DNA of 21,865 nucleotides from a virus, in IMG/VR virus record IMGVR_UViG_3300017727_000195, positions 1 through 21,865 of that record; one strand, 5' to 3'. Each line of letters starts with the position of its first letter. Positions within the stretch are counted from its first letter, which is position 1. Below are positions 4,569 to 21,533 of the stretch, piece by piece. The notes below the pieces were generated by a model, which ran no database searches, was not told the DNA's origin, and saw nothing but the letters and a program-made list of their open reading frames with translations. A program made the position numbers and the translations under genes.

Positions 4569-6319
4569 TACTCACACTCACACTTTTTACATTTACACTG
4601 TTCTATTTCTGCTTTAAGTTCTTTTATTGCTTCTATAAGTAGGCCATGAAGCTGATCATAATTTACTGTTTTGTATTCTACTCCCTGTTCGCCTGTATGA
4701 AACGCTAATGACTTACTCTCTACAGCAGTCGGTAATACTTTTTCTACTTCCTGTGCAATTACACCTGCAACTTCTCTGCCATCTCTGTTATTGTATTTAA
4801 ATGTATACCCATTAATTTTATCTACTTTATCTAATGCATTATCTATTTTTTGTATATTACTCTTTAATCTTTTATCAGAAGGTACGGTTGTTGAGTATGC
4901 AGTGACATTTCCATTTACAGAAAGATTCCCACTGTTGTCTAGTCTCATATCCTCGTTACCACCTACATTAAAAGACATACGTGAGCTACCATCATTGAAA
5001 TGTATATGCTCATCATTATTTCCAACATATACATCTGTAGCAGCAGATAGTCTTTGATCACCTGCTACACTAAATGCTGTACCGTTTAAAGATAATCCAG
5101 TACTAGCTGTGTAAGTTGTATCAGTATCTGTTGAAGCAAAGTCTAACTTGTTAGTAGCATCATTATATGTTACAGATATGTTAGTTTCTGTATTACCAGA
5201 TACCATTGCTCCTATAATATCTTGCACACCTTCGTCTTTTAAAGATACAGCACCTCCTGATACAGTAAAATCTGTAGTGTTAAAGGAGGCAATACCTTTA
5301 TTTGTTGTGGTAGCATCCTCTCCAGAGATTGAACCAGCACTTATATCTATACCCTCACCTGCAGAGATAGCTGCTTGCGCTCTAGCATTGGTAAAGTATA
5401 GATTAGTCCCTTCTGATAAGTCTCCTGTGTCATGATTAGATAAACTAGATACAGTTCCTGTGACATTGCCTGTGACATTACCACTTAAATTACCTGTTAC
5501 GTTTCCTGTTACCGCACCTGTTACAGGGCCAGTATGTGTACCTGCAGTATCGCCTGTGACATTTCCTGTGACATCACCAGTTAAGTCTCCAGTAACATTA
5601 CCTGTAACATTACCTGTGACATCACCAGTTAAATTCCCAGTAACATCACCAGTTATACCAGCACTAGAACTTAAAGTTGTGAAGCTACCAGCAGCGGCAA
5701 CAGTAGCGCCTATAGTTACACCATCAATAGTACCCCCATTAATGTCTGCTGTATCTGCTACTAAGCTATCTATGTTCGCTATACCATCAATGTATAAATC
5801 TTTCCATTGCTTGCTATTAGCACCTAAATCATATAGATTAGATTGATCTGGTACTATATTACTGTGTATATCTGCCCCAAAAGAAACACTGTCAGTAGAA
5901 GCATCACCGAATGTTAGGTTACCATTGATAACAGCGTTTCCTGTAACACTAAGATTGCCAGCAACATCTAGATCTGCAGAAGCTGTTACATTGCCTGTAA
6001 AGGTAGAAGTCTCATCAACAGTAAGTATATCTGTTCTTAGTGTTCCATCAAAGAAGCCATCCTTCCACTCAATCGTAGATGTACCAAAGTCATAGGTGTC
6101 ATCTGTCTTAGGACGTACAACACTAGAGGTAACTACAAGGTCATTGGCTGGTCCCATGCTTTCTATGGGTGGTCCGTTACCTGCTGTACCATCATGACTG
6201 TGTCCAGTAGTACCGTTGAACGCTGCCTCAATAGCATTGTATTCTGAGTTAAAGTCTGCAGCATCTATAACTGCACCTGTAACTATATTAGCTGTTGCTT
6301 GTCTTGTATAACCTGCCAT
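4568..6319 (-). CDS. Tail fibre with C-terminal peptidase S74 intramolecular chaperone
   Basis: 583 aa. Residues 1-50 are a virion-anchoring module (IDAADFNSEYNAIEAAFNG, then GHSHDGTAGNG) typical of marine podovirus fibres. Two YDFG/YDLG...WKDGFFDG/WKDLYIDG modules follow near residues 76-95 and 163-180. Residues 221-290 are a four-residue (G-x-V-T) repeat. Residues 481-583 form the S74 chaperone: SDKRLKSNI, AGVIAQEVEKVLP, then the helix LHGLLIEAIKELKAEIEQ. In endosialidase-type S74 domains the chaperone folds the trimer and is then released by cleavage before the Ser, with a Ser-Lys dyad five residues apart; here Ser481 and Lys486 are both present. The tail ends in an odd cysteine cluster, CKCKKCECE. 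Gene order, directly after the nozzle gene, supports a main tail fibre. Confidence 0.92.
   Translation of the reverse strand: MAGYTRQATANIVTGAVIDAADFNSEYNAIEAAFNGTTGHSHDGTAGNGPPIESMGPANDLVVTSSVVRPKTDDTYDFGTSTIEWKDGFFDGTLRTDILTVDETSTFTGNVTASADLDVAGNLSVTGNAVINGNLTFGDASTDSVSFGADIHSNIVPDQSNLYDLGANSKQWKDLYIDGIANIDSLVADTADINGGTIDGVTIGATVAAAGSFTTLSSSAGITGDVTGNLTGDVTGNVTGNVTGDLTGDVTGNVTGDTAGTHTGPVTGAVTGNVTGNLSGNVTGNVTGTVSSLSNHDTGDLSEGTNLYFTNARAQAAISAGEGIDISAGSISGEDATTTNKGIASFNTTDFTVSGGAVSLKDEGVQDIIGAMVSGNTETNISVTYNDATNKLDFASTDTDTTYTASTGLSLNGTAFSVAGDQRLSAATDVYVGNNDEHIHFNDGSSRMSFNVGGNEDMRLDNSGNLSVNGNVTAYSTTVPSDKRLKSNIQKIDNALDKVDKINGYTFKYNNRDGREVAGVIAQEVEKVLPTAVESKSLAFHTGEQGVEYKTVNYDQLHGLLIEAIKELKAEIEQCKCKKCECE
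4571..4879 (-). other. Peptidase S74 domain with predicted self-cleavage point
   Basis: Residues 481-583 of the fibre. The predicted cut is before Ser481 in PSDKRLKSNI, with Lys486 as partner. The last nine residues carry four cysteines (CKCKKCECE), which would lie in the released fragment. Confidence 0.85.
5453..5659 (-). repeat. 12-bp tandem repeat encoding (GNVT/GDVT)n
   Basis: About 17 units of four residues (GDVT, GNLT, GNVT, GPVT and similar) occupy residues 221-290 of the S74 fibre. On the + strand the DNA reads as variants of acctgtgacatt in tandem. Such repeats form extended beta structure in phage fibre shafts, and copy number may vary between relatives by slippage. Confidence 0.85.
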
Positions 6320-6321
6320 AA

Positions 6322-7941
6322 TTATTGCCTATCATTTTCTCTGTATTGTAATACTGCTGTGTCTAATGTAAATGGTGGATTTGTATCGTTACTTGTTATT
6401 CTCATAGCAACTGTGTGAAACGAACCTATTAAGTTCTCATTGTATATTCTCTTTACCTTACTGCCAAACTTAGCAGCATTTGTACCTGTACCGCCATACA
6501 AGGAGGTAGCTGCTCCATATACAAAAATACCACCACCTCCAGACAGAGATCCTATTTCAATTTCATTTGGTTGTAGTATCCTAGTATCGTCACCTGAGTC
6601 GAGGTTAAATAGTAACCTAAACTTTAAACTCATTTGGCCTGTAGGATCTGCATATAAACTTAACTTGTATGCTGTCTTCCTTTTCTCTGAATCTGTAATT
6701 GGCATATATGGTGTCTCTAGTATAGTCTCTATGTTATCACCATCAAATGCATTAGTTTTCTCTAGCTCATAAACATAACCATCTTCATTGGCAAACATAA
6801 TAGCTTCGGCTGTTCCAGCATAAATACTATCTGCTATATAAGCTTTGATTCCTTTTGTAGAGGACCACTCAATACCACCTGCACCTTGAGCCTGAAACTT
6901 TGTAGCTACTAAACCCTGTGCAACTTCATCATCTATAGATTCTACGTATGCAAATATTCTGTACTGACCCTTTTCTCTAAGTATAAGAGAAGAGTAGATA
7001 GGAGTAGATCTTAGAAAATCATCTGAATCTTTATTTATTTTATCAGATGCAACATCTAAGCCAAAGTCACCTATACGATCTGTAGCACTCAATAACCTAA
7101 TACCATCAGGGGACAAGTACATAATGTCACCACCAAATTCTTGTATGGTGTCTGCGTTTATACAACCGATCTTATTTGTAATTGGTGTTATCTGAAAATC
7201 AGAAGATGTACTACCTGTTAATCTCTTTATACTATCATTGGTAAATATAATTAGCTGATCACGGAACACAACCAGACCAGTCACATCGTTACCAACAAAC
7301 AAGCTACCAGCACCAGCGCCTGTAGAAAAGTTATCCACTGAGTTGGGTGCTGTAAAATATATCTGGCTACCCTTTGCGTAAAAAGTTGTTTCTTTAAATA
7401 CAACAACTAATTCTGCACCTTGAACGTCTGTATTTATGTTAGGACTAGATGCAGTAAGAAATGACATACTATTGCCATTTGTGTTATATATGCCTGGATA
7501 ATCCTGTCCATCAACAAATACAACCTGATCATCACCAGAAAAGTTAAACATAGCTTTCTTAGCTTTGCCGCCACCTGTGTCTGCAGTAGTAGCTATGTGT
7601 GTCCAAGTAGTACCTGTACCAAAATAATAAGCAGTATGATTTATATCCCCTGCTGATAACGTACCTATTGCATCAATAGCAGCTTGATTAACTTTACGTG
7701 CAACTACAACACGTCCTCCTGATACAACATGCATAGCTTCAATTTTACCATAACCAGGAACTTGTGTAGTGCTAAATTTTTCATAGCCTCTTATCTTAGT
7801 ATAACCACCCTGTCTGTCTGCCTCCATATTCTGTAATATAGTAGCAGAACCAATAGCATTTAAACCCTGCTGTAAGGGTGACATGTTAGAGATTAAACCA
7901 CCTTTAAACTCTACAGGAAAAGTATTCCATTGTGTTGGCAT
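6322..7941 (-). CDS. Tail nozzle/hub beta-propeller protein (T7 gp12 / P22 gp10-like)
   Basis: 539 aa. The N-terminus (FKGGLISNMSPLQQG, ATILQNMEADRQGGYTKIRGYEKF) is the usual opening of this family, which describes itself as nozzle, hub or packaged-DNA stabilisation protein. Beta-propeller-type strands follow: MFNFSGDDQVVFVDGQDYPGIY (131-152), ELVVVFKETTFYAKGSQIYFTAPN (177-200), VTGLVVFRDQLIIFTNDSIKRLTG (220-243) and GDIMYLSPDGIRLLSATDRIG (271-291). The phrase GL.VFRD.L.IF....I.RLTG is the strongest family signature. In the tail it would sit below the adaptor and close the DNA channel. ATG at 7941 overlaps the adaptor stop as TAATG. The adaptor-then-nozzle order is the same as in T7 (11, 12) and P22 (4, 10). 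Whether it is closer to the T7 or the P22 form cannot be decided here. Confidence 0.85.
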   Translation of the reverse strand: MPTQWNTFPVEFKGGLISNMSPLQQGLNAIGSATILQNMEADRQGGYTKIRGYEKFSTTQVPGYGKIEAMHVVSGGRVVVARKVNQAAIDAIGTLSAGDINHTAYYFGTGTTWTHIATTADTGGGKAKKAMFNFSGDDQVVFVDGQDYPGIYNTNGNSMSFLTASSPNINTDVQGAELVVVFKETTFYAKGSQIYFTAPNSVDNFSTGAGAGSLFVGNDVTGLVVFRDQLIIFTNDSIKRLTGSTSSDFQITPITNKIGCINADTIQEFGGDIMYLSPDGIRLLSATDRIGDFGLDVASDKINKDSDDFLRSTPIYSSLILREKGQYRIFAYVESIDDEVAQGLVATKFQAQGAGGIEWSSTKGIKAYIADSIYAGTAEAIMFANEDGYVYELEKTNAFDGDNIETILETPYMPITDSEKRKTAYKLSLYADPTGQMSLKFRLLFNLDSGDDTRILQPNEIEIGSLSGGGGIFVYGAATSLYGGTGTNAAKFGSKVKRIYNENLIGSFHTVAMRITSNDTNPPFTLDTAVLQYRENDRQ

Positions 7942-8630
7942 TAGAAATGTACTCTTGTGTCACGTATGTAATCCATACGATTTATATTTAAGCTTCTTAA
8001 GTACTTTATACCATCTTGAAACTTTCTATTAGATATGTCTGCCATCTGTGTATCTCCACGAAACTGGTAAACATAATACATAGCCCCATCAATAATACAA
8101 AACCTATACTGTTCTGGAAGTGACGGTACGTCTGATGCAATCTCTAAGTCATACCCTGTTCTATAGTATTCGTATACTAACTCATATGCTTTGTCTGGAT
8201 TAGGGTAGCATATAAGTTCTCTGCTAGGTGTCCTTACAATATGAGTAGGTGTGGATCTATTACTTGTGCCTGTATTGTATTCTGAGTCTGCATAATTTTC
8301 TATCCACTCTTCATAAGACATATTCTTTAACTTAATAGTTCCTATATTAAGAGTATCATCTCTTTTAATACGAAAGCTATTCATGTCTATGGTCTTGGCA
8401 TCATTAGGGTAGGAGTACCTAACAGTACCTGGTGCAAGAAATTCACTTTCCTCTACATGGTTCCAGGGCCATTGAAACTCTTCTTGATTAATATGTCTGA
8501 CTGCTGCATTAACAGCATCTTTAGCAAAAGAAAAGTACCCTGTTGCTGTAGGAAAAGTATCAAGTGTTAACTCCACCTCATTAAGTCTGTTGTTAACATC
8601 ATTAGTTAAACCTATAAAATCATATGCCAT
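7941..8630 (-). CDS. Tail adaptor/gatekeeper protein (T7 gp11 / P22 gp4-like)
   Basis: 229 aa, close to the usual length of podovirus adaptors. Family features: a helical N-terminus with FAKDAVNAAVRHINQ (35-49), the aromatic patch FQWPWNHVE (52-60), a beta-rich centre (GTVRYSYPNDAKTIDMNSFRI), the phrase LICYPNPDKAYELVYEYYRTG, and a C-terminal helix (FQDGIKYLRSLNINRMDYIRD). Such proteins form a ring under the portal and connect it to the nozzle. The next gene is the nozzle protein, joined by a TAATG overlap, which supports the call. Start at 8630 lies 1 bp after the upstream stop (TAATATG), with an AAGAGAAG Shine-Dalgarno inside that gene. Confidence 0.85.
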   Translation of the reverse strand: MAYDFIGLTNDVNNRLNEVELTLDTFPTATGYFSFAKDAVNAAVRHINQEEFQWPWNHVEESEFLAPGTVRYSYPNDAKTIDMNSFRIKRDDTLNIGTIKLKNMSYEEWIENYADSEYNTGTSNRSTPTHIVRTPSRELICYPNPDKAYELVYEYYRTGYDLEIASDVPSLPEQYRFCIIDGAMYYVYQFRGDTQMADISNRKFQDGIKYLRSLNINRMDYIRDTRVHF

Positions 8631-9936: not shown

Positions 9937-10221
9937 TTATGTTCTAGCATCTACCCAAGCTGTAACCATAGCAGACACTTCTGCGTTGGTCATGTCTGTA
10001 TCATCTTCTTTCTTAAAAGCACTAGCACTGTGCATTGCTAATACCTTTGTGTCTAACTCAGCAGCAGTTAATACTGTAACTGTGCTTGGTATATGCCACT
10101 CAGGATTATCACGTGTCCAACCTATGTATCTGTTACCAGTAACAAAGTAACCACCGTCCTCTACCCAGTCAGGACATTTCATTCCACCAGGAGACATCTC
10201 TAGTTTGTATTCAAGTATCAT
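9937..10221 (-). CDS. Small conserved phage protein, function unknown
   Basis: 94 aa. Soluble, with the phrases DGGYFVTGNRYIGWT and PEWHIPSTVTVLTAAELDTKVLAMHS, then an acidic-helical end (TNAEVSAMVTAWVDART). Similar small proteins (a GG(Y/W) segment, IGW, then a helix) occur in marine podoviruses beside structural genes, but no function is known to me. It overlaps the upstream 275-aa gene by 11 bp in another frame and has a strong AGAGGAAAG Shine-Dalgarno. Confidence 0.7.
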   Translation of the reverse strand: MILEYKLEMSPGGMKCPDWVEDGGYFVTGNRYIGWTRDNPEWHIPSTVTVLTAAELDTKVLAMHSASAFKKEDDTDMTNAEVSAMVTAWVDART

Positions 10222-11038
10222 CTTTGCTTTCCTCTTTCTCTAATCTTAGCATGTACTCAGGGTTTATGAAGTCTGCTTTACCAAATATTCTTTCGGCTGT
10301 CTTGTCAGCATTCTTATAATATTTATTTGCCATTTGATCTAGAAACTCTTCCAAATCATTAGAATGTGGAAGTATTTGTTGCTTTATACGGTCTGCTGTA
10401 TACTGAAGGTAACCAGATACTTCAGTCATAGCTACCTGTGGGTGTACACCATACTGCTGCATGTATTCTATAGTAGCCGTTGAAGCTCTGCCACCATCCA
10501 TAAGGTTACGATACATAAGCTCAAAGCCACGTCTTACATGGTGTCTCTTCTCTTCTCTTTCAAATGCTTCTTCATCCCACACATCAATACTAAAGTTTTC
10601 TTTTATGTTTTCGTAGCTATCTATAAGTACAGCAATATCTTTTATAGATCCATTTATTTTGTTCTCCATCATGACAAGACCATGACGTGCAGCCTTTAGC
10701 TCTGCTTCAGACACAACATCATCTTCGCCCTCTAGCTCTAGTATCTTGACACGCTGCTTGGCATGACCTACCTGTGCTTCTGACAAAGCCATCTTACGCT
10801 TCTCAACTTCAGCAGTAATCTGTCGTAGCATACGGTATGGTGAGTGACCATTAAGCATAGTCAATGTCATCATAGACAAAGTTGTTTGTGAGTTGTTACG
10901 ATCAAAAGCTCTAGTAGCTTTGTCTATCTCTGGTAACTTCTCTGCTACTCTAGCTGCAGCTACTTGATTTATATTCTCAGATGCTTCTATAGGCAGTGAG
11001 AATGTTATAGGCTTGGTTACTACGTTTGATTTAGTCAT
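10211..11038 (-). CDS. Charged helical protein, first gene after the promoter, function unknown
   Basis: 275 aa, strongly charged and predicted mostly helical, without membrane segment or signal peptide. Regions: a polar N-terminus (ASENINQVAAARVAEKLPEIDKA), coiled-coil-like charged helices at about 80-155 (EVEKRKMALSEAQVGHAKQR, then EAELKAARHGLVMMENKI), an EEAFEREEKRHHVRRG segment, and a C-terminal helical part (YMLRLEKEESKDDT). Start at 11038 is preceded by AAGGA six nt away and by the sigma-70 promoter at 11065-11092. Composition differs clearly from the beta-rich neighbours. A scaffold-like, assembly or internal role would fit such a helical protein, but nothing identifies it. Confidence 0.7.
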   Translation of the reverse strand: MTKSNVVTKPITFSLPIEASENINQVAAARVAEKLPEIDKATRAFDRNNSQTTLSMMTLTMLNGHSPYRMLRQITAEVEKRKMALSEAQVGHAKQRVKILELEGEDDVVSEAELKAARHGLVMMENKINGSIKDIAVLIDSYENIKENFSIDVWDEEAFEREEKRHHVRRGFELMYRNLMDGGRASTATIEYMQQYGVHPQVAMTEVSGYLQYTADRIKQQILPHSNDLEEFLDQMANKYYKNADKTAERIFGKADFINPEYMLRLEKEESKDDT

Positions 11039-11049: not shown

Positions 11050-11064
11050 ATGTTTTAGTTTTTT

Positions 11065-11092
11065 ATTATAGCAAATAAATAAGTTTTGTCAA
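11065..11092 (-). promoter_or_regulatory. Consensus sigma-70 promoter with extended -10
   Basis: Read on the minus strand: TTGACA (11092-11087), a 16-bp spacer, then TATAAT (11070-11065), with TG one base upstream of the -10 box (TGCTATAAT). Both hexamers match the bacterial consensus exactly. Expected start of transcription is near 11058. The -35 box begins on the base after the stop codon of the upstream 749-aa gene. It would drive the block from the 275-aa gene through the adaptor, nozzle and fibre genes. Confidence 0.85.
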
Positions 11093-11111
11093 TCATGATG
11101 CTGCTCCTGAA
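11093..11111 (-). repeat. Cassette 3' boundary repeat, copy 1
   Basis: TTCAGGAGCAGCATCATGA at the end of the 749-aa propeller gene; identical over 19 bases to 13339-13357. It encodes SGAAS plus stop and carries AGGAG seven bases before an ATG that no longer starts a gene. Confidence 0.9.
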
Positions 11112-13342
11112 ACAGACTCTATATATTGACCCTCTGTTAGCATGTCCCCATAATCAGTTGCGTTCGCTGCGGTTTGAACTGTAACCTTATCTATAACGCC
11201 ACATACATTGCTAGGTACGTTCACTGGTCTTCCACCTACTATAGTAGCATATGTTCCGTCTGATGCAACCCCACACCTAGATCGTGCCACAGTTAGATCC
11301 CCAAAGTCTGCTGAGTTTGATGCTGTTTGAGTTGTTACATAACTTATAACATTTGTTCGAGTATTTCCTGCTGCTGCTGTGTCACCACCGCATATTAAAC
11401 CCCTTGTAGCATCAGAACACGCTCCATGTTGCTTTCCGTTGAGGTGATCTCCAAAATCTGTAGAGTTACCTAGAGTCTGAGTCGTTACATACTCCATAAT
11501 TGCTGTAGCTACATTAAAATTTCCATCATTAAAAACACTGCGAGTTGCGTCATTAAAAGCAGAACCCTCATCTATAAGTCCAGTAGATAGGTCACCAAAG
11601 TCTGTTCCGTTACCTGTAGTAGCTATAGTTATGTACTCTATAACATCAATGTTTAGCTGCGCATTGCTGAACCCAGCAGCGATAAGCCCTCTTGTACCAT
11701 CTGAAGTTGCCATCACTTTGTTTTTTACTGCTGTCAGATCACCAAAATCTGTGGCATTGCCAGTGGTAGATGTAGTAATGTATTGCATGACATTAGTCTC
11801 AGATCCTGCGGTATTCGTCATCCCTCCCGAAAATACACCTCTACTACCATTTCCACATGCTGCACCTCTATACGTAGAACCAAGCGTATCACCAAAATCT
11901 GTGGCATTCCCTGCAGTTGTAATGCTTTGATACTCTATTTTATTACTCCAACCTGAATCGTAGCCAATGGAGTAAACGTGCCTGTCACCGCCCCAAGCTA
12001 TACTTGAAGTAGAACCACCAGAGCCACCAGAGCTAGATGACCCATAACTAAACTCAGCTACACCATAAGAGCCAGATAATACATCTGAACCAGAGGCTGA
12101 AGGATAGAGTTCTTGTAAGCCTATATAGACCTTTTGTTCACTTTCATTAACATAGAAAGACCTAATTCTTTCAGTCAATTTCCAGTTAGGGCTTACTGCA
12201 TCCTCTCCTAACCTTATAGTTTTAACATGTGTCATGTTACTTTTGCTAATATCCCAAGCAACACTAGTTTCAAAAACAAATAGATCACAAGCTGTAACAG
12301 TGTTGCTTTGTGCGTCTGTATAGTCTTTCCTACCATCAACCCATATTTTAGTACCGTCATCAGAGAACCAAAAGTCTACATATTGAGCAGCACCACTGGT
12401 GTCATATCTGGTAGGATCTATATTATTTTCAATCTCATACCCAAAGTCAAAACAAGATAAAGCTCCACTACTAGTAACGTCTATAGTGCTTGGGTCATAG
12501 GCAGTTGTAACGTTAAAGATTAACATCTTTCCACCAACACCTCCAGTATTTATTTCATACCAAACAAATTTATTACCACTATCTATCCACTTAGATCTGT
12601 AATCATAACCAGAACTAGTAAAATTATTACGATGGGAGGTGTCTTTTATTCCGTTCCATATATTGTTAAGTGTAGTAGTAGTAAAAGTTCTATCTACTGC
12701 TGGCGTTGTGCTACTAGCTGAAAGAATATCGTATGCAGTATTTAAATTCCAACCTCTTAGTCTATGATAACTAGCGGTATGAACCGTACTTAATATTGCT
12801 GTTCCGTTTGAATTAAAATCTAAAGATGCAGCATCCCACATGATATCAAAAGGTTCATCATTAGTAGCGCCAGATAGGTTAGAAAAACTTTTATTTTGAT
12901 CTATAGTAGCTGTACTGATATCCCAAGCAGTAGACAAATCATAATATACAGCATCTCTTTGATGACCCAATACATGCAGTTTTGTACCATCTGCACTAAA
13001 TCTAATATTCTGTGTCAATACATTATTAGATGTTCCAGAAACAGGAACTGTTGCTAGGTATGAGTCATAATCAAAACTGAAAGTTGTAGGATCAGCAGTA
13101 GTACTACTAGCAGTACCTATTACAGTCTGCCACACTCCGTTAGCATATACTTTGTACTCACTAGCAGTTTCGCTCCACCATGTATCACCATTACTAGGGC
13201 TGCTTGGCTCTGTGTCACTCTCTGTGTGAATGAAACCTGAGATACCACTGTCAGCACCTGCAATGTTAAACCCATTGGTGAAGCTAGGAGACTGTGTCCC
13301 TGTTGCACCTGTTATCTTTGTTAATCCTTCAACCTTACTCAT
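11093..13342 (-). CDS. Double beta-propeller tail appendage protein
   Basis: 749 aa. Residues 1-78 form a fibre head with the WW module (DTEPSSPSNGDTWWSETASEYKVYANGVW written as EPSSPSNGDTWW... then YANGVW). Residues 110-435 hold about five degenerate repeats built on FSxDGTKxxV...STAWDIS (FSADGTKLHVLG at 115, FSDDGTKIWVDG at 326, AWDIS at 139 and 362). A GGSGGS linker follows at 439-444, then residues 448-749 carry six DFGD-type repeats (xxYITIxTxGNATDFGDL, then GTRG and GG). The two repeat classes look like two successive propellers. The six-repeat half is shared with two other proteins here. ATG at 13342 overlaps the upstream stop (ATGA), with AGGAG seven nt away. Probably a receptor-binding or appendage protein; binding partner unknown. 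Confidence 0.82.
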   Translation of the reverse strand: MSKVEGLTKITGATGTQSPSFTNGFNIAGADSGISGFIHTESDTEPSSPSNGDTWWSETASEYKVYANGVWQTVIGTASSTTADPTTFSFDYDSYLATVPVSGTSNNVLTQNIRFSADGTKLHVLGHQRDAVYYDLSTAWDISTATIDQNKSFSNLSGATNDEPFDIMWDAASLDFNSNGTAILSTVHTASYHRLRGWNLNTAYDILSASSTTPAVDRTFTTTTLNNIWNGIKDTSHRNNFTSSGYDYRSKWIDSGNKFVWYEINTGGVGGKMLIFNVTTAYDPSTIDVTSSGALSCFDFGYEIENNIDPTRYDTSGAAQYVDFWFSDDGTKIWVDGRKDYTDAQSNTVTACDLFVFETSVAWDISKSNMTHVKTIRLGEDAVSPNWKLTERIRSFYVNESEQKVYIGLQELYPSASGSDVLSGSYGVAEFSYGSSSSGGSGGSTSSIAWGGDRHVYSIGYDSGWSNKIEYQSITTAGNATDFGDTLGSTYRGAACGNGSRGVFSGGMTNTAGSETNVMQYITTSTTGNATDFGDLTAVKNKVMATSDGTRGLIAAGFSNAQLNIDVIEYITIATTGNGTDFGDLSTGLIDEGSAFNDATRSVFNDGNFNVATAIMEYVTTQTLGNSTDFGDHLNGKQHGACSDATRGLICGGDTAAAGNTRTNVISYVTTQTASNSADFGDLTVARSRCGVASDGTYATIVGGRPVNVPSNVCGVIDKVTVQTAANATDYGDMLTEGQYIESVSGAAS
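12014..12033 (-). repeat. Cassette 5' linker repeat, partial copy C
   Basis: 20 bases shared with the two longer copies, in the 749-aa gene between its first propeller-like region and its six-repeat region. Confidence 0.75.
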
Positions 13343-13357
13343 GATGCTGCTCCTGAA
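13339..13357 (-). repeat. Cassette 3' boundary repeat, copy 2
   Basis: Identical 19 bases to 11093-11111, at the end of the 381-aa propeller gene. Here the AGGAG and ATGA are in use as ribosome site and start of the 749-aa gene. Confidence 0.9.
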
Positions 13358-14484
13358 GCTGCGCCGCCATAATATCTACCCACTGTCAGGTCACCAAAAT
13401 CTGTAGCGTTACCTGGAGTTGATATGTTTATATAATCAATTACATTACTTATAGGACTAACACCACCTGCTATAGTCATACGTGTGCCATTTGAATTACA
13501 CATTGTACTACCTCTAGTTACTGATAAATCGCCAAAATCTGCAGAGTTACCAGGTGTATCTTGTGTTATATATTCTAAAGTATTCAGTTCTGTTGCGTTA
13601 TTACCAGATGACACATATGTTCTTGATAAATGCATTACTATTCTTGTAGCATCTCCTGCGCCATCAGGTTCATTTGAATCAACTGATAGATCTCCAAAAT
13701 CAGTAGCACTATCCAATGTTTGAACTGTTACATATTCTATATTACTAAAACCAGCAGTAATCATACTACCAAATCCAAAATTTCTTGTTGGTCCTGATGC
13801 GGCCCCAGTTTCACGAGTATCGTATGTTGCATTACCAAAGTCAGTTGCATTACCTGTAGTTGCTATGGTTATGTACTCAATTCCATTACTATTGTTTCTA
13901 CCATGCCAGATGAGTCCTCTAGTTGAGTCAGATGAACTTGCTGTATCCATAGTAATGTTATTTAAATCACCAAAATCTACAGAATTACCAGGGGTAGCAA
14001 AGGTTATGTAATGTAATTCATTTGTTTGACTACCAGCAAGCGCACCACCATGAAATACTCCCCTAGACCCATTGGAAGCACCACCACTCATAAACCTAGT
14101 TGTGCCTGAAGTATAGTCACCAAAATCTGTAGCATTGCCTGGTGTTGATATATCTATATAATCAATTACATTACTATAGCTACCAGTAGACGGTCTTCCA
14201 CACCAATGAACTCCTCTATCACCGTACATATTAAGACTAACACTACCACCAGAGCCACCAGAGCCACCAGTACCTAACTCTCTAAACTGTTGATCTATAT
14301 ATCTGTAGAGTTTATCATTAGCACTGTCCCACCAAAGATCTCCTGTTTCAGCATCAACAGGCTCTGTTTCACTAGAGGTGTAGGCTTGTTCTACATCAAC
14401 ACCACCTACCTTAAACTTGTTAGGCATGTCGATAGCACTAGTAGCAGTCTCATGTTCTATTGTATTTACTTTTAAAGTACTCAT
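13339..14484 (-). CDS. Six-repeat DFGD beta-propeller tail appendage protein
   Basis: 381 aa. Residues 1-70 are the N-terminal fibre module (MSTLKVNTIEHET, DMPNKFKVGGVDVEQAYTS, GDLWWDSANDKLYRYIDQQF), common in phage fibres and thought to hold the protein on the particle. A GTGGSGGSGGS linker spans 71-81. Residues 86-381 contain six repeats of about 49 residues, each with (I/V)(E/D)YI(T/D)I.T.GNATDFGD, then a GTRG turn and a GG strand. Six repeats with split first and last strands are what a closed six-bladed propeller would show. It is the simplest of the three paralogues. A TAGGGA Shine-Dalgarno that begins in the stop of the upstream gene precedes ATG at 14484. Confidence 0.82.
   Translation of the reverse strand: MSTLKVNTIEHETATSAIDMPNKFKVGGVDVEQAYTSSETEPVDAETGDLWWDSANDKLYRYIDQQFRELGTGGSGGSGGSVSLNMYGDRGVHWCGRPSTGSYSNVIDYIDISTPGNATDFGDYTSGTTRFMSGGASNGSRGVFHGGALAGSQTNELHYITFATPGNSVDFGDLNNITMDTASSSDSTRGLIWHGRNNSNGIEYITIATTGNATDFGNATYDTRETGAASGPTRNFGFGSMITAGFSNIEYVTVQTLDSATDFGDLSVDSNEPDGAGDATRIVMHLSRTYVSSGNNATELNTLEYITQDTPGNSADFGDLSVTRGSTMCNSNGTRMTIAGGVSPISNVIDYINISTPGNATDFGDLTVGRYYGGAASGAAS
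14243..14269 (-). repeat. Cassette 5' linker repeat, copy B
   Basis: 27 bases identical to 20998-21024, in the 381-aa gene between its fibre head and its propeller. Confidence 0.85.
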
Positions 14485-14492
14485 AATGGTCC

Positions 14493-15620
14493 CTATGCTA
14501 TAGCTAGAAATATTGTATTGTCAATGTCAAATATCCCAGCCCCAGAAGAAAGTTGAGCGCAGAGTCTTATAATCTCGCCTCCACTAAAATTATAAGCAGG
14601 ACTTCTCATAGTGTATTCATCATATACTGAAACTCCACTAGTCTCGCAATACAAATAATTCGTGCCTAAAGATTGAGCAACTTGGAATATTGTTGAACTA
14701 TTTGGTGCTGGTAGTGTCAGACTGTTTTTGTAGGAAGTGGATATGCCATCTCTCATACCAGTATAAGTAGAACCTGTACCACTAGCTCTATTAAATCTCC
14801 TAGAGCTAGAGCCTTGAGATACATTAGTGTAGCTTGCACTAGTAGCTGTACTTATAGGAGCAAAACCTATAGCACTACTGTTTCTTATTCTAGCAGTTAC
14901 TGTCTCATAACTTTCTGTACCTGTAGAGAATATATCACGCCTGAGTACGGAATTACCAGCAGAGTTAAGTATTTGAAGACCTGCAAAGCAAGCATCATTC
15001 CTATAACTAGTTGGATGAGTACACTTTAAGCCTATGTATATTCTCTTACTCCCACTTACATTGCTAGGTACGTTAAAATCATATACATCGTAGGGACTAC
15101 CAGAATCACTAGAGGAAGTATAACTCATTGTTTGTAGTGGCGTTGCTGCAATAAATTGAGTTGCTATAGAAAGATTTACATTTGTTATAGATACAACAGG
15201 AGAACTTGCAATTATAGGACCAGAAATACTATTTAATCTATAGTCTAGATAAAACGTTTCAGTACCTTCTGAAAGAGTATCAAGGTCTGTCTGTATTGTA
15301 ACAGAAACATTATTGCCAGTTAAGTTCAGAGTACCATTAGTTGCACCAGTAAAATCTGCTGCTGAACTACTTCCATTAAAGTTTAAAGTCCAGTATATAA
15401 TACCTTCAGTATGATAGTTACTGTTAATAGTAAATATACAACTAGCACCTTCAAGGATAGTAGAATTATTTACTGTGTTTGTATTAAGTATAACTATATT
15501 AGGCCAGTTTTTATCTATTTGATGTGTATAATTATCATGTAAATCACTAATTTTAGTAGTAGTGCTATCAAAAGGACTAATAGCTTGTCTGGGTCCGATT
15601 ATGCCTGAATTTCTTCTCAT
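14493..15620 (-). CDS. Tail fibre protein with Calx-beta-like domain
   Basis: 375 aa when started at 15620. The reading frame is open upstream to an ATG at 15656, but the 15620 start overlaps the upstream stop as TAATG, the rule at several junctions here, and gives MRRNSGIIGPRQ, the usual start of this fibre class. Residues 1-40 are the head module (SGIIGPRQ, then DLHDNYTHQIDKNWP). Residues 49-147 look like a Calx-beta-type sandwich (ILEGASCIFTINSN, TLNLTGNNVSVTIQTDLDTL and the EGTETFYLDYRL strand). Residues 150-375 are beta-rich with AGLQILNSAGNSVLRRDIFSTG and close with IFDIDNTIFLAIA. A host-surface binding fibre is likely. Calx-beta domains often bind calcium, but ligand residues cannot be assigned here. 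Confidence 0.78.
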   Translation of the reverse strand: MRRNSGIIGPRQAISPFDSTTTKISDLHDNYTHQIDKNWPNIVILNTNTVNNSTILEGASCIFTINSNYHTEGIIYWTLNFNGSSSAADFTGATNGTLNLTGNNVSVTIQTDLDTLSEGTETFYLDYRLNSISGPIIASSPVVSITNVNLSIATQFIAATPLQTMSYTSSSDSGSPYDVYDFNVPSNVSGSKRIYIGLKCTHPTSYRNDACFAGLQILNSAGNSVLRRDIFSTGTESYETVTARIRNSSAIGFAPISTATSASYTNVSQGSSSRRFNRASGTGSTYTGMRDGISTSYKNSLTLPAPNSSTIFQVAQSLGTNYLYCETSGVSVYDEYTMRSPAYNFSGGEIIRLCAQLSSGAGIFDIDNTIFLAIA

Positions 15621-16708
15621 TATAATTGCTCTATAAGAACTGAACCATGATCCCAAGTTGAAGCTTGTGTAATAGTAGCACTGTTATCACTAGAGAAACA
15701 ACCTCCTCCTCCACCTCCAGCGTTTGCAGTAGAAGAATTACCTCCTCCTCCACCAGAGTAACCTGCACCACCACCTGTTCCCATATTATCGGAGCCTCCA
15801 CCGCCCCCTCCACCAAAGCCTCCATTACCTCCGCTATTAGTATTATCAGATTTCTTTATGCCACCATAGGCATTATTGCTAGGCGATCTGCCTCCTTCTG
15901 CACCATTGTTTCCAGGTACATAATTAAAGTTGGTACTTTGATTGCCTCCAGTTCCATCGGAAAGCCATCCTGCACCTGCTCCTGCCCAATAAGAACTTCC
16001 TCCATTATTGCTCTGACCGCCACTACCATTTTCACCGCCATTGGAGCCGCTTTGTTGGGAGTTATTACCTGATCCATTTGATGCTAAACTAGCATTAGCG
16101 TTTGTATATGTGTTCTTAGTACCTCCAGCACCACCACCTGCAGCTATCAATAATGAAGAAAAATCACTCGTATCTGTAAAGACCCAAGTAGCCCCTCCTC
16201 CACCTGGAGCAGCATTATCTCCCTCACTAGAACTATTTTGAGTTGGATAATATGTGTTATCATCTTCCCCTCGTTGACCTACAATAATCTGTATTTTAGC
16301 TCCTTTAACAAAAGTAAAATTAGCTACAATTTGCGCTCCTAAAGGTGCAAATGTACCATTACGATAACTAAGATGGCTTTTCTGGCCTCCTGCTGCGCCT
16401 CTTGCTGTTATACGATAGTTACCACTACTTGGTATTGTAAACTTTTGATATCCTTGAAACTCTCCTTGATCAAAAAAATTACTATCATTAATCCAAGGAT
16501 AAGTAGCGGTATTATAATTATTTCGTAAAGCAGTTAAGGTTGGACCTAAACGTCCAGTAGTAGCGCCATTATTAAAAGTAAATGATGAGAAAGCAAATAG
16601 AGCATCACCTATTGTCTGACTAGCCTTAATATCGTAAAGACCAGTCTTCGATATTACAGCATTTGTAGATCCTATATATCCACCATATTGATGATAATTA
16701 AAAGACAT
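15620..16708 (-). CDS. Glycine-rich adhesin, ALK/LTK glycine-rich type
   Basis: 362 aa. Residues 40-85 form a phage-type lead module (FTFNNGATTGRLGPTLTALR, WINDSNFFDQGEFQGYQKF). Residues 90-145 form the strand pattern FTIPSSGNYRITARGAAGG ... IQIIVGQRG. From 165 onward there are glycine runs (APGGGGATWVF, LLIAAGGGAGG, GGFGGGGGGGS, GYSGGGGGNSS). This succession is the pattern of the glycine-rich domain of ALK/LTK receptors and related bacterial and phage proteins, which pack as polyglycine-II helices. The C-terminus ends in a strand (HGSVLIEQL). An AGGT Shine-Dalgarno precedes ATG at 16708; its stop overlaps the next start as TAATG. Likely a receptor-binding tip; target unknown. It differs from the glycine-rich protein at 3621-4568 in both N-terminus and loop pattern. 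Confidence 0.8.
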   Translation of the reverse strand: MSFNYHQYGGYIGSTNAVISKTGLYDIKASQTIGDALFAFSSFTFNNGATTGRLGPTLTALRNNYNTATYPWINDSNFFDQGEFQGYQKFTIPSSGNYRITARGAAGGQKSHLSYRNGTFAPLGAQIVANFTFVKGAKIQIIVGQRGEDDNTYYPTQNSSSEGDNAAPGGGGATWVFTDTSDFSSLLIAAGGGAGGTKNTYTNANASLASNGSGNNSQQSGSNGGENGSGGQSNNGGSSYWAGAGAGWLSDGTGGNQSTNFNYVPGNNGAEGGRSPSNNAYGGIKKSDNTNSGGNGGFGGGGGGGSDNMGTGGGAGYSGGGGGNSSTANAGGGGGGCFSSDNSATITQASTWDHGSVLIEQL

Positions 16709-16715
16709 TATTTAC

Positions 16716-17084
16716 CTATGCGTCATCTATTTCTTCGTAAGATATTACTATACTAAGATCACTGTTTGCACTTGCTCCTGCCCTTATTTGATCAGACTCT
16801 TCTAAGTATATTGCAGTATCTTTACTTATTACAACTAAAGAACTATCAGGAGGTACAGTTACAGTTGTTGCTAGACTTCTATTGGAGTTAGCACTACTGT
16901 CATAAAAGTAGCAAGTTGCATTCGCAGCATTGGTTCCATCTATGTTAGATATTATAATAGTATTTATTTTTAATACTTTATTAGAAGGGCAAGATAAATA
17001 ATTAGTAGTAGTAGAAGTATTAAGAGTACCTCCAATAGTCTTACCATAAATACTTGATACATTTACTATATTGGGCGCTGCCAT
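16716..17084 (-). CDS. Conserved small phage structural protein
   Basis: 122 aa. The opening APNIVNVSSIYGKTIGG and the phrases NKVLKINTIIISNIDGTNAANATCYF, VPPDSSLVVISKDTAIYLEE and DQIRAGASANSDLSIVISYEEI are typical of a small single-domain beta protein widely seen beside fibre genes in cyanophages and other marine phages. The family is usually annotated only as structural or hypothetical. An AGAAAGGT Shine-Dalgarno lies upstream of ATG at 17084, overlapping the end of the large fibre gene. It may be a fibre accessory or connector protein; this is inference from position. Confidence 0.78.
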   Translation of the reverse strand: MAAPNIVNVSSIYGKTIGGTLNTSTTTNYLSCPSNKVLKINTIIISNIDGTNAANATCYFYDSSANSNRSLATTVTVPPDSSLVVISKDTAIYLEESDQIRAGASANSDLSIVISYEEIDDA

Positions 17085-17097
17085 TTTTTAACCTTTC

Positions 17098-20073
17098 TTA
17101 TCCGAATACTATTGCCATTGCTATAGCTTTACCTGTTGAAAACGTAGGTACTGTTGCTGTACCACATCCAATTACATGACCATTAGAATCTATTGTAACA
17201 TCTTGAATAAACGTAGTTCCTGAATTGTTTGATGAACCTTGATTTGAAATAATAGGGTGCGCTGTCAAAAACCCTGCACCATTGGTAAGTTGATTTGTGT
17301 TCGTTACATTAGTTGCACCAGTTGCAATTCCGTCTAGTTTAGTTTTAAGTGTACTAGTAAAGTTCTTTTGAGTCAAGCCTCCATCACCTACTGAGTACTG
17401 AGTGTTAGCATCATTTACCCAAGCATAATCACTACCATTCCATGATAGTATTTGATTAGTACCTGCTGAAGATTGATTGAGATGTGAGTTTACATCACTA
17501 TTTGCATACCCTGCAGGTACAGCAGCCCAAGTCATACCTCCTGTGTTACCTGATTGTGCTTGTAAAAAGTAACCGTTACTAGGACTGTTGCTTACTTTTA
17601 AGTTGGCCTCATCTACAACGTTGTCTACTATCACAGTTGCGCCATCAGCAGTACTTGTTACTTCCCCTGAGTGATTGGGGTGTGTATAGTTATTAGCACT
17701 GGAAGCTATACCATTTAATTTAGTTTGCAAAGCATCTGTAAAGGCGTTGGTATCACTATTAGCTTCGTAAGCAGTCTTTACTTCAGCATCTGTTTGATCA
17801 GCAGTCGCCCCTGTTTCAACTCCATCTAGCTTAGTCTTATCTGCAGCAGACATAAAACCATCTGCTGAAGTTGTGGAATTATCATGGTCATGGCTGTTGT
17901 CAGCTACGGTAGCAGTAATAGTTATATCAGCAGAGCCATTAAAAGATGCAGACCCACTAAGATCTCCACCCAGTCCTATACTTCTAGAGGAAGCTAATGT
18001 AGTTGCTGTAGTAGCATTACCACTAACATTACCTGTGACGTTACCAGTTAAGTTACCTTCTACAGTATCTAGTTTAAGCAATCCAAAAGAGGTAGATGCA
18101 TCCGCTAAATTTATTGCACCTGATGGTGTAGGATCATACTCATCTAATAATGTCCACTTATCTTCTGATACATCATAAAAGAAACCCATGTGGGTATAAC
18201 CCACGCCTGATGCACCTGTGTTCCTATTAGAGAAGAAACCTGTATCTACTAGTACTGGACTTGCTACACCTGTCCATACATCATTTAATGTATGCCCTGT
18301 AGTTGCACCAAACTTTACAGATATGTTATCTGCACTGTGTATCATTTGCTCGTTACCAGTGATAGCGTTGCCAGTAGATATGGTAGTACTAAAGTTGTCT
18401 ACACTTACAGCAAAAGTGTCTGGTGTACCTACACTATCAATCTTTACATAGTAATTAGTAGATGCAGTACCTGTAAAGTGACCAGCAAAGAATGCATCAT
18501 CTAAGCCTGAACCACTAAAAGTAGTATTAGCATCACCAATAGCATCCCCTTCATTTGCACGATAGAATGGCGCACCTGCAGTTACATCTGATGTACTTGT
18601 TGATGTAGTAGTACCAAGCACAGATAAGTTACCACCCACAATAAGATCATCACCTATGTAGGTATCAGTTCTTACTCTAAATGAATTTACAGAATGGTTT
18701 TGTTGATTTATTAGTAATATACCATTAGTAGAATCAGAATTAACAACCCACCCTAAACACATAGGAAAGTTAGGATACACAGGAGAAGCATTCTGTACAG
18801 CACCTGGTGTTAATCCCACAAAGAAGTTTGTACCTGCTGAAAGACCACTAGTGTCTACGCCATGTAACTGCCCTGCAATAATACAATAACCATAAGTATT
18901 GTTAGGTATGTCTGCTGCTGCCAAACCTTGGGCATTGTATGCGCTAACATCTGTAGCATCAGCTAGTCCTACAGTAGGTACATCAAGAGTACCTGCTGTG
19001 TAGTTACCTGAGAAGTACAGAGGTTTACCTTTAGCTATAGTAGATCCTGTACTGTTATACACACGTTGATGTTCTTCAAGACCTACTTCATGTACTACAT
19101 TCTGTGTATCTGAATAATAACTTAAAGTTTTAGTACCAGTATCATACCATACTCTTCCTTCAGAGTAGGATGGTGCTGACGCTTGACTTGTCATATCAAT
19201 GTGAGTGCCTACATTAACTTCGCCTGTGGCTGTAGTATTAACAAAGCTTGGGCTATCTGTTGTAGCTAATCCCTGATTTATAGCCTTTACTGCAGTCTCA
19301 TCTGTTAGCTCACTATCCATAACAGCACCTGCTGCTGCGACATTAGTAGTATCCGTAACATCAGCGCTGGTTTCTATTCCAGTTAGTTTAGTCTTCTCTG
19401 CATCTGTGTAAGCATTTGTGTCAGAGTTATTCTCGTAGGCTGTCTTTATCTCTGCGTCTGTTTGATCTGCTGTGGCACTTGTTTCTATGCCACTTAACTT
19501 AGTTTGCTCTGCGTCAGTAAACGCATTAGTGTCTGCATTATTTTCGTATGCAGTTTTAATCTCAGAGTCTGTCTGGTCTGCTGTGGCACTAGCTTCGATA
19601 GCATTTAGCTTAGTATGGTCTGCATCAGTAAATACATTACTATCTGAAGCGGCCTCTACTGCTGCTCTGATCTCCGCATCTGTTTGATCTGCTGTAGCAC
19701 TAGTTTCAATACCGTTTAGCTTTGTTTGTAGTGCATCAGTAAAGGCGTTGGTGTCTGCGTTATTCTCATAAGCAGTTTTAATCTCAGCGTCTGTTTGATC
19801 TCCAGTCGCTCCAGACTCAAGTCCAGCTAGTTTAGTTTCTTCTGCTGTTGTGTAGGATGCTGTAGTATTATCTAAAACAGTAGAGTGGGCCTGTACGTCT
19901 GTACCTATAGCTACACCTAGCGTAGTCCTAGCATCACTATCTGTAGTATCATCAAGAACTGTAGAAGCGTAGGATGTAATAGTAGTAGTAGCAGGTATGT
20001 CTAAGTTGGCTAAGTCTTCTAAGTCATCGGATCTAGCAAGTTCACCTAATAGTCTATTCTTTGATTTTGTCAT
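17098..20073 (-). CDS. Large repeat-rich tail fibre protein
   Basis: 991 aa, the longest gene here. Residues 1-79 are a fibre head (LARSDDLEDLANLD, DSDARTTLGVAIGTDVQAH). Residues 80-227 are four perfect-length 37-residue repeats beginning TKLxGIE, with a fifth partial copy from 228. A WxDTGTKTLSYYSD module lies near 305-315, then a globular part (YGYCIIAGQLHGV, PNFPMCLGWVVNSD) and a beta part with DTFAVSVDN and EDKWTLLDEYDP. A GNLTGNVTGNVSGNATTATTL shaft leads to a second single copy of the 37-residue unit, and the end is a typical fibre tail (TNQLTNGAGFLT ... TGKAIAMAIVFG). No S74 chaperone is present. ATG at 20073 overlaps the upstream stop (ATGA), AGGAG seven nt away. Long lateral fibre is the likely role. 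Confidence 0.85.
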   Translation of the reverse strand: MTKSKNRLLGELARSDDLEDLANLDIPATTTITSYASTVLDDTTDSDARTTLGVAIGTDVQAHSTVLDNTTASYTTAEETKLAGLESGATGDQTDAEIKTAYENNADTNAFTDALQTKLNGIETSATADQTDAEIRAAVEAASDSNVFTDADHTKLNAIEASATADQTDSEIKTAYENNADTNAFTDAEQTKLSGIETSATADQTDAEIKTAYENNSDTNAYTDAEKTKLTGIETSADVTDTTNVAAAGAVMDSELTDETAVKAINQGLATTDSPSFVNTTATGEVNVGTHIDMTSQASAPSYSEGRVWYDTGTKTLSYYSDTQNVVHEVGLEEHQRVYNSTGSTIAKGKPLYFSGNYTAGTLDVPTVGLADATDVSAYNAQGLAAADIPNNTYGYCIIAGQLHGVDTSGLSAGTNFFVGLTPGAVQNASPVYPNFPMCLGWVVNSDSTNGILLINQQNHSVNSFRVRTDTYIGDDLIVGGNLSVLGTTTSTSTSDVTAGAPFYRANEGDAIGDANTTFSGSGLDDAFFAGHFTGTASTNYYVKIDSVGTPDTFAVSVDNFSTTISTGNAITGNEQMIHSADNISVKFGATTGHTLNDVWTGVASPVLVDTGFFSNRNTGASGVGYTHMGFFYDVSEDKWTLLDEYDPTPSGAINLADASTSFGLLKLDTVEGNLTGNVTGNVSGNATTATTLASSRSIGLGGDLSGSASFNGSADITITATVADNSHDHDNSTTSADGFMSAADKTKLDGVETGATADQTDAEVKTAYEANSDTNAFTDALQTKLNGIASSANNYTHPNHSGEVTSTADGATVIVDNVVDEANLKVSNSPSNGYFLQAQSGNTGGMTWAAVPAGYANSDVNSHLNQSSAGTNQILSWNGSDYAWVNDANTQYSVGDGGLTQKNFTSTLKTKLDGIATGATNVTNTNQLTNGAGFLTAHPIISNQGSSNNSGTTFIQDVTIDSNGHVIGCGTATVPTFSTGKAIAMAIVFG
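17720..17845 (-). repeat. Remote single copy of the 37-residue fibre repeat
   Basis: About 600 residues after the tandem array the same unit returns (TKLDGVETGATADQTDAEVK, then AYEANSDTNAFTDALQ), followed by the start of another (TKLNGIASSAN). Boundaries are approximate. Confidence 0.75.
19393..19836 (-). repeat. Four tandem 111-bp repeats in the large fibre gene
   Basis: Residues 80-116, 117-153, 154-190 and 191-227, each 37 residues: TKL(N/A/S)(G/A)(I/L)E..AT.DQTD.EI(K/R).A.E...D.N.(F/Y)TDA. A fifth copy starts at 228 and diverges after TKLTGIETSAD. Unit length is constant, with no indels; DNA similarity between units is high. Confidence 0.88.
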
Positions 20074-20089
20074 GCTGCTGCTCCTGATG
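20070..20089 (-). repeat. Cassette 3' boundary repeat, copy 3 (diverged)
   Basis: The same arrangement at the end of the 487-aa propeller gene (CAGGAGCAGCAGCATGA, encoding SGAAA plus stop), with AGGAG seven bases before the ATG of the 991-aa fibre. Confidence 0.8.
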
Positions 20090-21533
20090 ACGCTGAAACT
20101 CCTGAGGTAATGAATAATAAGTCACCGAAATCTTGAGCATTCCCCAAAGTTTGTATAGTTACATAGTCCATAACATTAACTCTGGCAGGAGAGCCGTCCG
20201 ATGTTCCACCACCATTAACATGATAAGTCCCATCGCTACATGCGCCATGTCTTTCTACATTTACAGTTGCGTCTCCAAAGTCTGTGGCATTTCCTGCTGT
20301 TGCTGTAGTAATATACTGTATGGTATTAACTCTAGCGGTGTTATTGGCATACCCCCCAGAGAATAGTATTCTAGTAGTATCGCTAGAAGCCGCGCCCCCT
20401 CGTACTATCTGAGCAAGATCACCAAAATCTGTGGCATTACCTGCCGTAGATATAGTCACATAATCAATAACATTTGTTTCATCTGCAAGAGAAGACCCTA
20501 TGCCGCCCATGAATACACCACGGGTAGCACTAGCAGCCGCCGTTATATAATACCTATTAATGGTTAAGTCACCAAAATCTGATGAATTACCTGTGTTGGC
20601 GATAACTACATAATCTATAGCCTTTTGGCTACCTGCATAACCACCACCTATTAAACCACGACCTGTGTTAGACGCTCCGTCAGAACAAGCTCCCTTAAAT
20701 CTATCTGCGAGTAAAAGATTTCCAAAATCAGTAGCGTTTCCTGTTGTTGCAGTTGCAAAATAATCTATTATATTTGTTGAACCACTAGTTGCTGCATCAT
20801 AACCACCTGCAACTATTGATCTGCTGCCATTCGAACAAGCTGCAGACCACTCTCTTGAGGCTGTCAAATCGCCAAAATCTGAAGTATTGCCAGGGGTGGC
20901 GATAGCTGCATATTGTATTGTGTCTACACGAACGGCAGCGTTGTTACTACCTCCAGACCAAATTCCTCTAGCACCACCCCAAGCAATACCTGAACTGCTA
21001 CCACCAGAGCCACCAGAGCCACCAACATCTCTAAATGCACTATCAGCATAAAATTTAACAGCGCCATCCCATAATAAAGTACCATTAGTAGGATCAGATG
21101 TTGTAACGCTAGAACCCATACCATCACCATGTGTGGTGCAATAATATGTCAAACCTGTCAAAGGTGCAGCAGCGTCTACAGCAAAGGTAACAGTTGCACC
21201 AGCAGTACCAGCAGTGCCAGTAGATGTAACACCTGTGGTATAGGATACACCACCATTCTTAAAGGCTAAAGGGTGTGTAGATACAGAAGAGTCACTAACA
21301 TCAAATGTATATGTCACACCTCTGAGTAGTGTTATCGTTGGAGCAGTTACACCATCTATGGCAAACTTATTACCACCATCATCTACCACAGTAACTACTC
21401 TGGTAGTTGTGTCATATTTATATACGTTTAGTGTGTTTAGGGCAGAACCTGTAGAGTGCGTAGGGGCTACAGGAAAGTTAGGCTTACCTGTTCCAGCTAC
21501 ATCTACTATGTTATCTACTTTAATTTCTGTCAT
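20070..21533 (-). CDS. Cupredoxin-like domain fused to six-repeat DFGD propeller
   Basis: 487 aa from ATG at 21533, which overlaps the upstream stop as TAATG and gives MTEIKVDNIVDVAGTGKPNFP, a standard fibre N-terminus; an upstream in-frame ATG at 21548 would add five residues inside the previous gene. Residues 33-145 resemble a cupredoxin: the strand VTYTFDVSDSSVSTHPLAF, then LTYYCTTHGDGMGSSV. Candidate type-1 copper ligands are His87, Cys132, His135 and Met139. A LLWDGAVKFYADSAFRDVG module and a GGSGGSGGSSSG linker (171-182) lead to residues 184-487, six repeats of the GNATDFGDL type. Protein class: tail appendage. This cupredoxin-like module is known from other marine phage proteins; whether it holds copper is not established by sequence. 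Confidence 0.82.
   Translation of the reverse strand: MTEIKVDNIVDVAGTGKPNFPVAPTHSTGSALNTLNVYKYDTTTRVVTVVDDGGNKFAIDGVTAPTITLLRGVTYTFDVSDSSVSTHPLAFKNGGVSYTTGVTSTGTAGTAGATVTFAVDAAAPLTGLTYYCTTHGDGMGSSVTTSDPTNGTLLWDGAVKFYADSAFRDVGGSGGSGGSSSGIAWGGARGIWSGGSNNAAVRVDTIQYAAIATPGNTSDFGDLTASREWSAACSNGSRSIVAGGYDAATSGSTNIIDYFATATTGNATDFGNLLLADRFKGACSDGASNTGRGLIGGGYAGSQKAIDYVVIANTGNSSDFGDLTINRYYITAAASATRGVFMGGIGSSLADETNVIDYVTISTAGNATDFGDLAQIVRGGAASSDTTRILFSGGYANNTARVNTIQYITTATAGNATDFGDATVNVERHGACSDGTYHVNGGGTSDGSPARVNVMDYVTIQTLGNAQDFGDLLFITSGVSASSGAAA
20998..21024 (-). repeat. Cassette 5' linker repeat, copy A
   Basis: 27 bases coding the GGSGGSGG linker, identical to 14243-14269. A third partial copy (20 bases identical) is at 12014-12033. 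Each lies just before the six-repeat propeller region. Confidence 0.85.
21099..21437 (-). other. Cupredoxin-like domain
   Basis: Residues 33-145 of the 487-aa protein. The ligand pattern is His87 ... Cys132-x2-His135-x3-Met139, with the YYC..H...MG signature typical of small blue copper folds. Confidence 0.65.

Follow-up and report, generated by a model that had tools for sequence, protein, structure and literature searches.

The tail region of an uncultured marine virus carries tandem genes which very probably encode two-part appendage proteins, with interchangeable propeller cassettes taken from a shared pool. The genes lie in an IMG/VR virus record of 21,865 bases (IMGVR_UViG_3300017727_000195, analysed in full and termed the window), whose minus strand carries all long genes, and are referred to as A (11093–13342), B (13339–14484) and C (20070–21533). 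Each gene would combine an N-terminal head, specific to its slot in the tandem array, with a C-terminal six-bladed, Kelch-like propeller, the latter coming from a diverse pool common to related phages and to the slots within one phage.

The C-terminal part of each protein consists of six repeats of approximately 50 amino acids, which certainly exceed chance. The initial annotation described exactly six DFGD repeats per protein; the number is correct, while the motif reads DFGD in 15 of the 18 repeats and DYGD (A), DFGN (B) and DFGN (C) in the remainder. Six repeats are a family property: among 209 complete open reading frames (ORFs) of related loci, 97 give six motif hits and a second group gives 11–12 (two propellers), counts that are too low since the motif scan misses degenerate repeats. 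The propellers of A, B and C share 46–47% pairwise identity.

Comparison of heads and propellers

The comparison of heads and propellers covered 56 propeller genes, taken from some 20 related contigs. On the head tree the genes form three classes, each on one side of a single branch, so that class membership requires 2 changes, the minimum. Placed on the propeller tree, the same labels require 22 changes, where the lowest possible number is 2 and shuffled labels average 26.1. The residual association between head and propeller is weak (5 of 200 shuffles are as low as observed), and a few recent copies are its cause, at least in part. Approximately unbiased (AU) tests on the propellers reject a clade of positional orthologues for A (p 8e-45) and for C (p 0.023). 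A single tree shared by propellers and N-terminal parts had been named in the initial annotation as the outcome that would speak against exchange; the two trees conflict, which favours exchange.

Identity values point in the same direction. Propellers are ~44% identical both within and between head classes, and in 53 of the 58 cross-contig pairs with heads of at least 80% identity the propellers fall below 60%. Individual pairs diverge in opposite ways: the propeller of L188_6887 is 86% identical to that of L279_6820 on a head of a different class (38%), whereas against L154_8450 its head is 95–99% identical and its propeller 47%. Window gene A and L274_7899 (L190/L274) share 82% of propeller and 49% of head residues, and L154_8450 and L278_7831 share 98% and 86%, respectively. 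Between L278 and L154 two heads stand in reversed order with the propeller (98%) unmoved.

At the DNA level, similarity switches at both propeller edges in many relatives. In the three pairs whose propellers are closer than their heads (L188_6887/L279_6820, A/L274_7899 and L154_8450/L278_7831), the edges lie within 5 nucleotides (nt) of the first propeller codon and 2–14 nt from the end of the stop codon. The DNA similarity of A to L190/L274 begins at window position ~11998, directly after a Gly-Ser linker, and continues as far as the stop codon (11093). Between L007 and L008, head C is ~98% identical, the propeller is unalignable and ~98% identity resumes at the stop codon. The family accordingly shows the make-up of modular receptor-binding proteins, a conserved N-terminal part with an exchanged C-terminal domain. 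The proposal of exchangeable cassettes, already made in the initial annotation, is well supported by the conflicting trees and by these edges.

Predicted fold and variable segments of the propeller

An AlphaFold2 model (42 sequences) of the C-terminal domain of C depicts a six-bladed Kelch-type propeller with a predicted local distance difference test (pLDDT) score of 92–98, in agreement with the label first given to this region. Foldseek and VIA-align match it to Keap1, KLHL12 and the designed SAKe proteins (Z ~39, root-mean-square deviation ~2 Å over 279–287 residues). As in these Kelch propellers, the modelled domain has six blades of four strands, a GG pair ending the second strand of the blade (phases +24/+25 are mostly GG in 47 representatives) and variable BC and DA connections. 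Unlike them, it shares 11–16% identity with the Kelch structures, carries the DFGD motif and forms the C-terminal domain of a phage protein rather than part of an E3 adaptor. Pfam Kelch families gave no match at E<=1 against 25 members, and the C propeller is for this reason described as Kelch-like by predicted fold, with no claim to sequence membership. Pfam and PDB sequence searches returned no real relative of the propeller. A short match to OxoDH_E1alpha_N in some members, covering ~11 residues around the DFGD motif (member 1), was judged spurious.

Per-repeat entropy identifies two variable segments in each blade, the BC loop (with insertions and deletions) and the DA segment, set among conserved strands and the conserved GNATDFGD and SNGTRG motifs. 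In eight close pairs, 20% of BC and 16% of DA sites are changed versus 5% of core sites (odds ratio 4.2, p 1e-23). The pooled ratio of non-synonymous to synonymous rates (dN/dS) in the loops is below 1 and thus does not demonstrate positive selection there. In Kelch proteins the BC and DA connections share one face and form the ligand-binding site. By analogy, the variable segments would be expected on one face of the phage propeller, as would suit a receptor-binding tip that can be swapped. Such a face at the C-terminus, encoded next to tail-fibre genes, suggests that the propeller may bind the receptor, with the heads docking on the virion and a swap changing target specificity.

As a separate observation, silent differences between A (11093–12001) and L190/L274 are about 4x as frequent in the BC loop as in the core (proportion of differing silent sites, pS, 0.39 vs 0.09), a pattern that separate replacement of the loops would give; misalignment at insertions and deletions may contribute, and pooled pairs have little excess.

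The head of C is predicted to contain a cupredoxin-like domain, as the initial annotation had it. Cupredoxins rank top in the structural comparison of its model, and a His-Cys-His-Met set, the putative copper ligands, is invariant in 20 sequences. In PDB, the cupredoxin profile matched antibody-domain sequences at E values of at least 0.003; these matches were left unused. A copper site would be an uncommon feature of a phage appendage. Cupredoxin-like domains with intact His-Cys-His-Met (window 21087–21419, L112–L184) are also common in marine viral contigs outside propeller genes.

Proposed routes of exchange and alternative explanations

Every propeller has a head on either side, or a head on one side and a conserved next gene on the other; among phages with the same gene order, identity in these flanks is mostly 75–99%. 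Most swaps would proceed through the long conserved heads as homology arms, the gene's own head on the left and the head of the next gene on the right, and the heads appear to be better candidates for this role than the identical borders. Where two heads differ, exchange would depend on short matching stretches at the start of the propeller and at the SGAAS/ribosome-site end; the edges in such cases lie close to the propeller start and the stop codon, so that stretches of this kind must suffice there. The conserved 3' end would close the protein and carry the ribosome site and start of the next gene, and a cassette swapped in frame would therefore stay translationally coupled. A gene for a T7-type endonuclease I is present in one relative of 56 kb, and RecT had no match in six relatives.

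The initial annotation took the identical linker and 3' DNA to be the trace of exchange. The identities themselves are real, extending over 27 nt of linker in B and C, 20 nt in A, and over 19 nt of the 3' end in A and B. That these borders act as the recombination sites is nevertheless unlikely. In favour of this role, many genes share the 3' border TCAGGAGCAGCATCATGA, which is also where exchange across unlike heads stops. Against it, the Gly-Ser sequence occupies the junction in this phage species only, among 283 loci, with relatives carrying other linkers. Of the 55 IMG/VR sites that contain its 20-mer core, 54 are unrelated and lie mostly in Gly-rich proteins, so that linker identity is weak evidence of anything more than chance, and the linker was rejected as an exchange site. 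In the swap between A and L190, the only clear one to involve a gene of the window, similarity begins past the linker, the donor-type gene has no such linker, and conservation on the left side is that of the propeller start itself (W-G-G-x-R).

The 3' identity, in turn, follows gene overlap. In the 36 genes that overlap the next start, the Ser-Gly pair uses TCA in 32/33 and GGA in 31/33, and AGGA is present in 32, whereas the 20 non-overlapping genes have GGA in 4/13 and AGGA in 5/20; GGA makes up 26% of the Gly codons of the window. The S-G-x-A-S peptide is retained in most genes of both groups. Since the identity is relaxed where genes do not overlap, it reflects functional constraint exerted by the ribosome site, by the overlapping start and by a C-terminus that is itself conserved. 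An overlap with the next start, initially ascribed to the 3' border in general, is found from B to A and from C to the fibre gene at 17098–20073; at the end of A the ATG opens a 13-codon ORF only. Furthermore, the 18–19 nt of the border are shorter than the minimal pairing segments reported for RecA (31–34) and Red-beta (23–27) (PMC3945230).

Divergence in place, in which immune-like or receptor selection drives fast change of the propellers and leaves heads and flanks conserved, would explain the many pairs with near-identical heads and flanks and ~45% identical propellers, along with the loops being the fastest sites. It is nonetheless improbable, as propellers of 82–98% identity sit on heads of 38–86%, the core differs as well as the loops, the propeller data reject positional-orthologue clades, and point mutation alone cannot give saturated propellers flanked by DNA of ~98% identity. 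Targeted rewriting by a diversity-generating retroelement or other mutator carries the slightest chance of all. Hypervariable C-terminal adhesin domains are typical retroelement targets; here, though, whole domains move, silent sites and indels are among the changes, and no reverse transcriptase (RVT_1) was found in six related contigs, mostly fragments with one of 56 kb. Hardly more credible are chimeric metagenome assemblies joined at shared motifs. In favour of this reading, the relatives are all IMG/VR contigs, and the 50,697 records of cultured phages contain next to no members of the propeller family. Against it, other datasets hold records that repeat several of the mosaic contigs at >99.8% identity (among them window/L108, L273/L274, L034/L035 and L195/L197), and a shared border of 18–19 nt is short for assembler joining.

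Certain points also weigh against cassette exchange. No donor of a similar propeller was found for window B or C (best ~51%), so that we infer their exchange from orthologues; the head trees comprise 84 columns, and all relatives are metagenome (IMG/VR) contigs. Pooled dN/dS is 0.68 and 0.46 in the variable loops and 0.15 in the core, and with loop values <1 relaxed constraint alone could suffice. Virion location and receptor binding of the propeller proteins are likewise what we infer, and PHROG matches to the propeller itself are of 'unknown function'.

Source virus, related systems and further features

The tail protein at 7941–8630 shares 72% identity with Roseobacter phage CRP-207 and 42% with Puniceispirillum phage HMO-2011, and the tail genes are homologous to those of the HMO-2011 group in similar order, resembling the structural-gene order of CRP-207, CRP-603 and HMO-2011. 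On this basis the window is assigned, by its tail genes, to the tail region of a marine podophage of HMO-2011 type; the DnaJ-split DNA polymerase of the type (PMC9038755) belongs to the replication module, outside the 21.9-kb window. Cultured members differ in having no tblastn match to the propeller and other fibre genes at the corresponding place. A near-identity DNA search of cultured phages gave no match, and tblastn of the propellers in the cultured phage records gave Synechococcus phage S-SKS1 alone (E 0.02).

Shuffling of phage adhesin domains is already known, with recent exchange of tail fibre and spike domains between conserved N-terminal parts described for receptor-binding proteins (Smug et al., 2023; PMC10684548). 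That text makes no mention of propellers, whereas here the unit is Kelch-like, sits in tandem multi-gene arrays and would move between slots and phages. Relaxed homologous recombination in lambdoid tail fibres (PMC3945230) likewise exchanges segments between partly conserved flanks, differing in the recombination genes described above. A Kelch-like cassette carried in slot-specific arrays by uncultured HMO-2011-type phages seems to be a new form of adhesin shuffling; no paper describing it was found in the literature searched.

Tentatively, abundant uncultured marine podophages could possess combinatorial adhesins, with two to six slot-specific heads per array and on each head one Kelch-like propeller from a large community pool, although we consider this possible rather than probable. 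If true, one phage would show several binding tips at once, re-sorted by recombination. The propellers, which lack a Pfam match and are hardly ever seen in cultured phages, are the likely host-specificity module of a dominant marine phage group. As natural interchangeable parts with exact edges, they would be useful for host-change tests and for chimeric binders in laboratory phages.

Table 1. Positions of the parts of genes A, B and C and of adjoining features in the window
Feature	Position	Strand	Basis or remark
Gene C head (class C), with cupredoxin-like domain	20988..21533	-	ORF, head class; orthologues L007, L008/L109, L009/L110, L010/L111, L011
Predicted cupredoxin-like domain, C head	21087..21419	-	Alignment, model pLDDT 95.6, Z 9.4 to nitrite reductase cupredoxin domain
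C Gly-Ser linker DNA	20998..21024	-	Sequence
C putative six-bladed Kelch-like propeller cassette	20070..20987	-	Repeats and model
C 3' border: SGAAA, ribosome site AGGAG, ATGA overlap with gene 17098–20073	20070..20087	-	
Fibre-like gene translationally coupled to C	17098..20073	-	PHROG tail fiber families; 37-aa repeats
Gene B head (class B)	14236..14484	-	Head class
B Gly-Ser linker DNA, same 27 nt as C	14243..14269	-	
B putative propeller cassette	13339..14235	-	
B 3' border: SGAAS, AGGAG, ATGA overlap with A start	13339..13357	-	
Gene A head (class A)	13097..13342	-	Head class
A extra domain between head and propeller, 'AWDIS'-type repeats	12032..13096	-	Propeller-like by sequence only
A Gly-Ser linker DNA, 20 nt common to B and C	12014..12033	-	
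A putative propeller cassette	11093..12001	-	82% amino acid identity with L190/L274 propeller on different head
A 3' border; right end of exchanged block	11093..11111	-	
13-codon ORF (MIDKTYLFAIIKN) overlapping A stop	11055..11096	-	Kept in relatives L110, L196; changed in L193

The extra domain of A has phmmer matches to repeat proteins in L246 and L247, and the N-terminal part of gene A, used alone as query, returned no relative. In L011 (4303–6600) a gene C orthologue also has an extra domain between head and propeller, with YDLSTASYDN-type repeats, in a position corresponding to that in A. The 13-codon ORF MIDKTYLFAIIKN is possibly a coupling leader for the next long gene after A (10211–11038), which is preceded by a ribosome site of its own.

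In another branch of the family (L014, L016, L020 and others) the proteins end in SNxHGGL rather than SGAAS, and many of them contain two propellers (11–12 motifs). Propeller relatives of 41–48% identity occur in six bacterial assemblies (L339–L344: Porticoccaceae, Parcubacteria, Pirellulales, Epulopiscium, Nomurabacteria and Maricaulis), for which a prophage, a contaminating virus or a host gene are candidates. Elsewhere in the window, the fibre gene at 17098–20073 contains 111-nt (37-aa) repeats, TKLxGIExxATADQTDAEIKTAYENN, common to cyanophage and roseophage fibres. The gene at 4568–6319 encodes a fibre protein with an S74 self-cleaving chaperone and harbours, at 5435–5680, an array of 12-nt units (GNVT/GDVT repeats) which may form a length-variable shaft.

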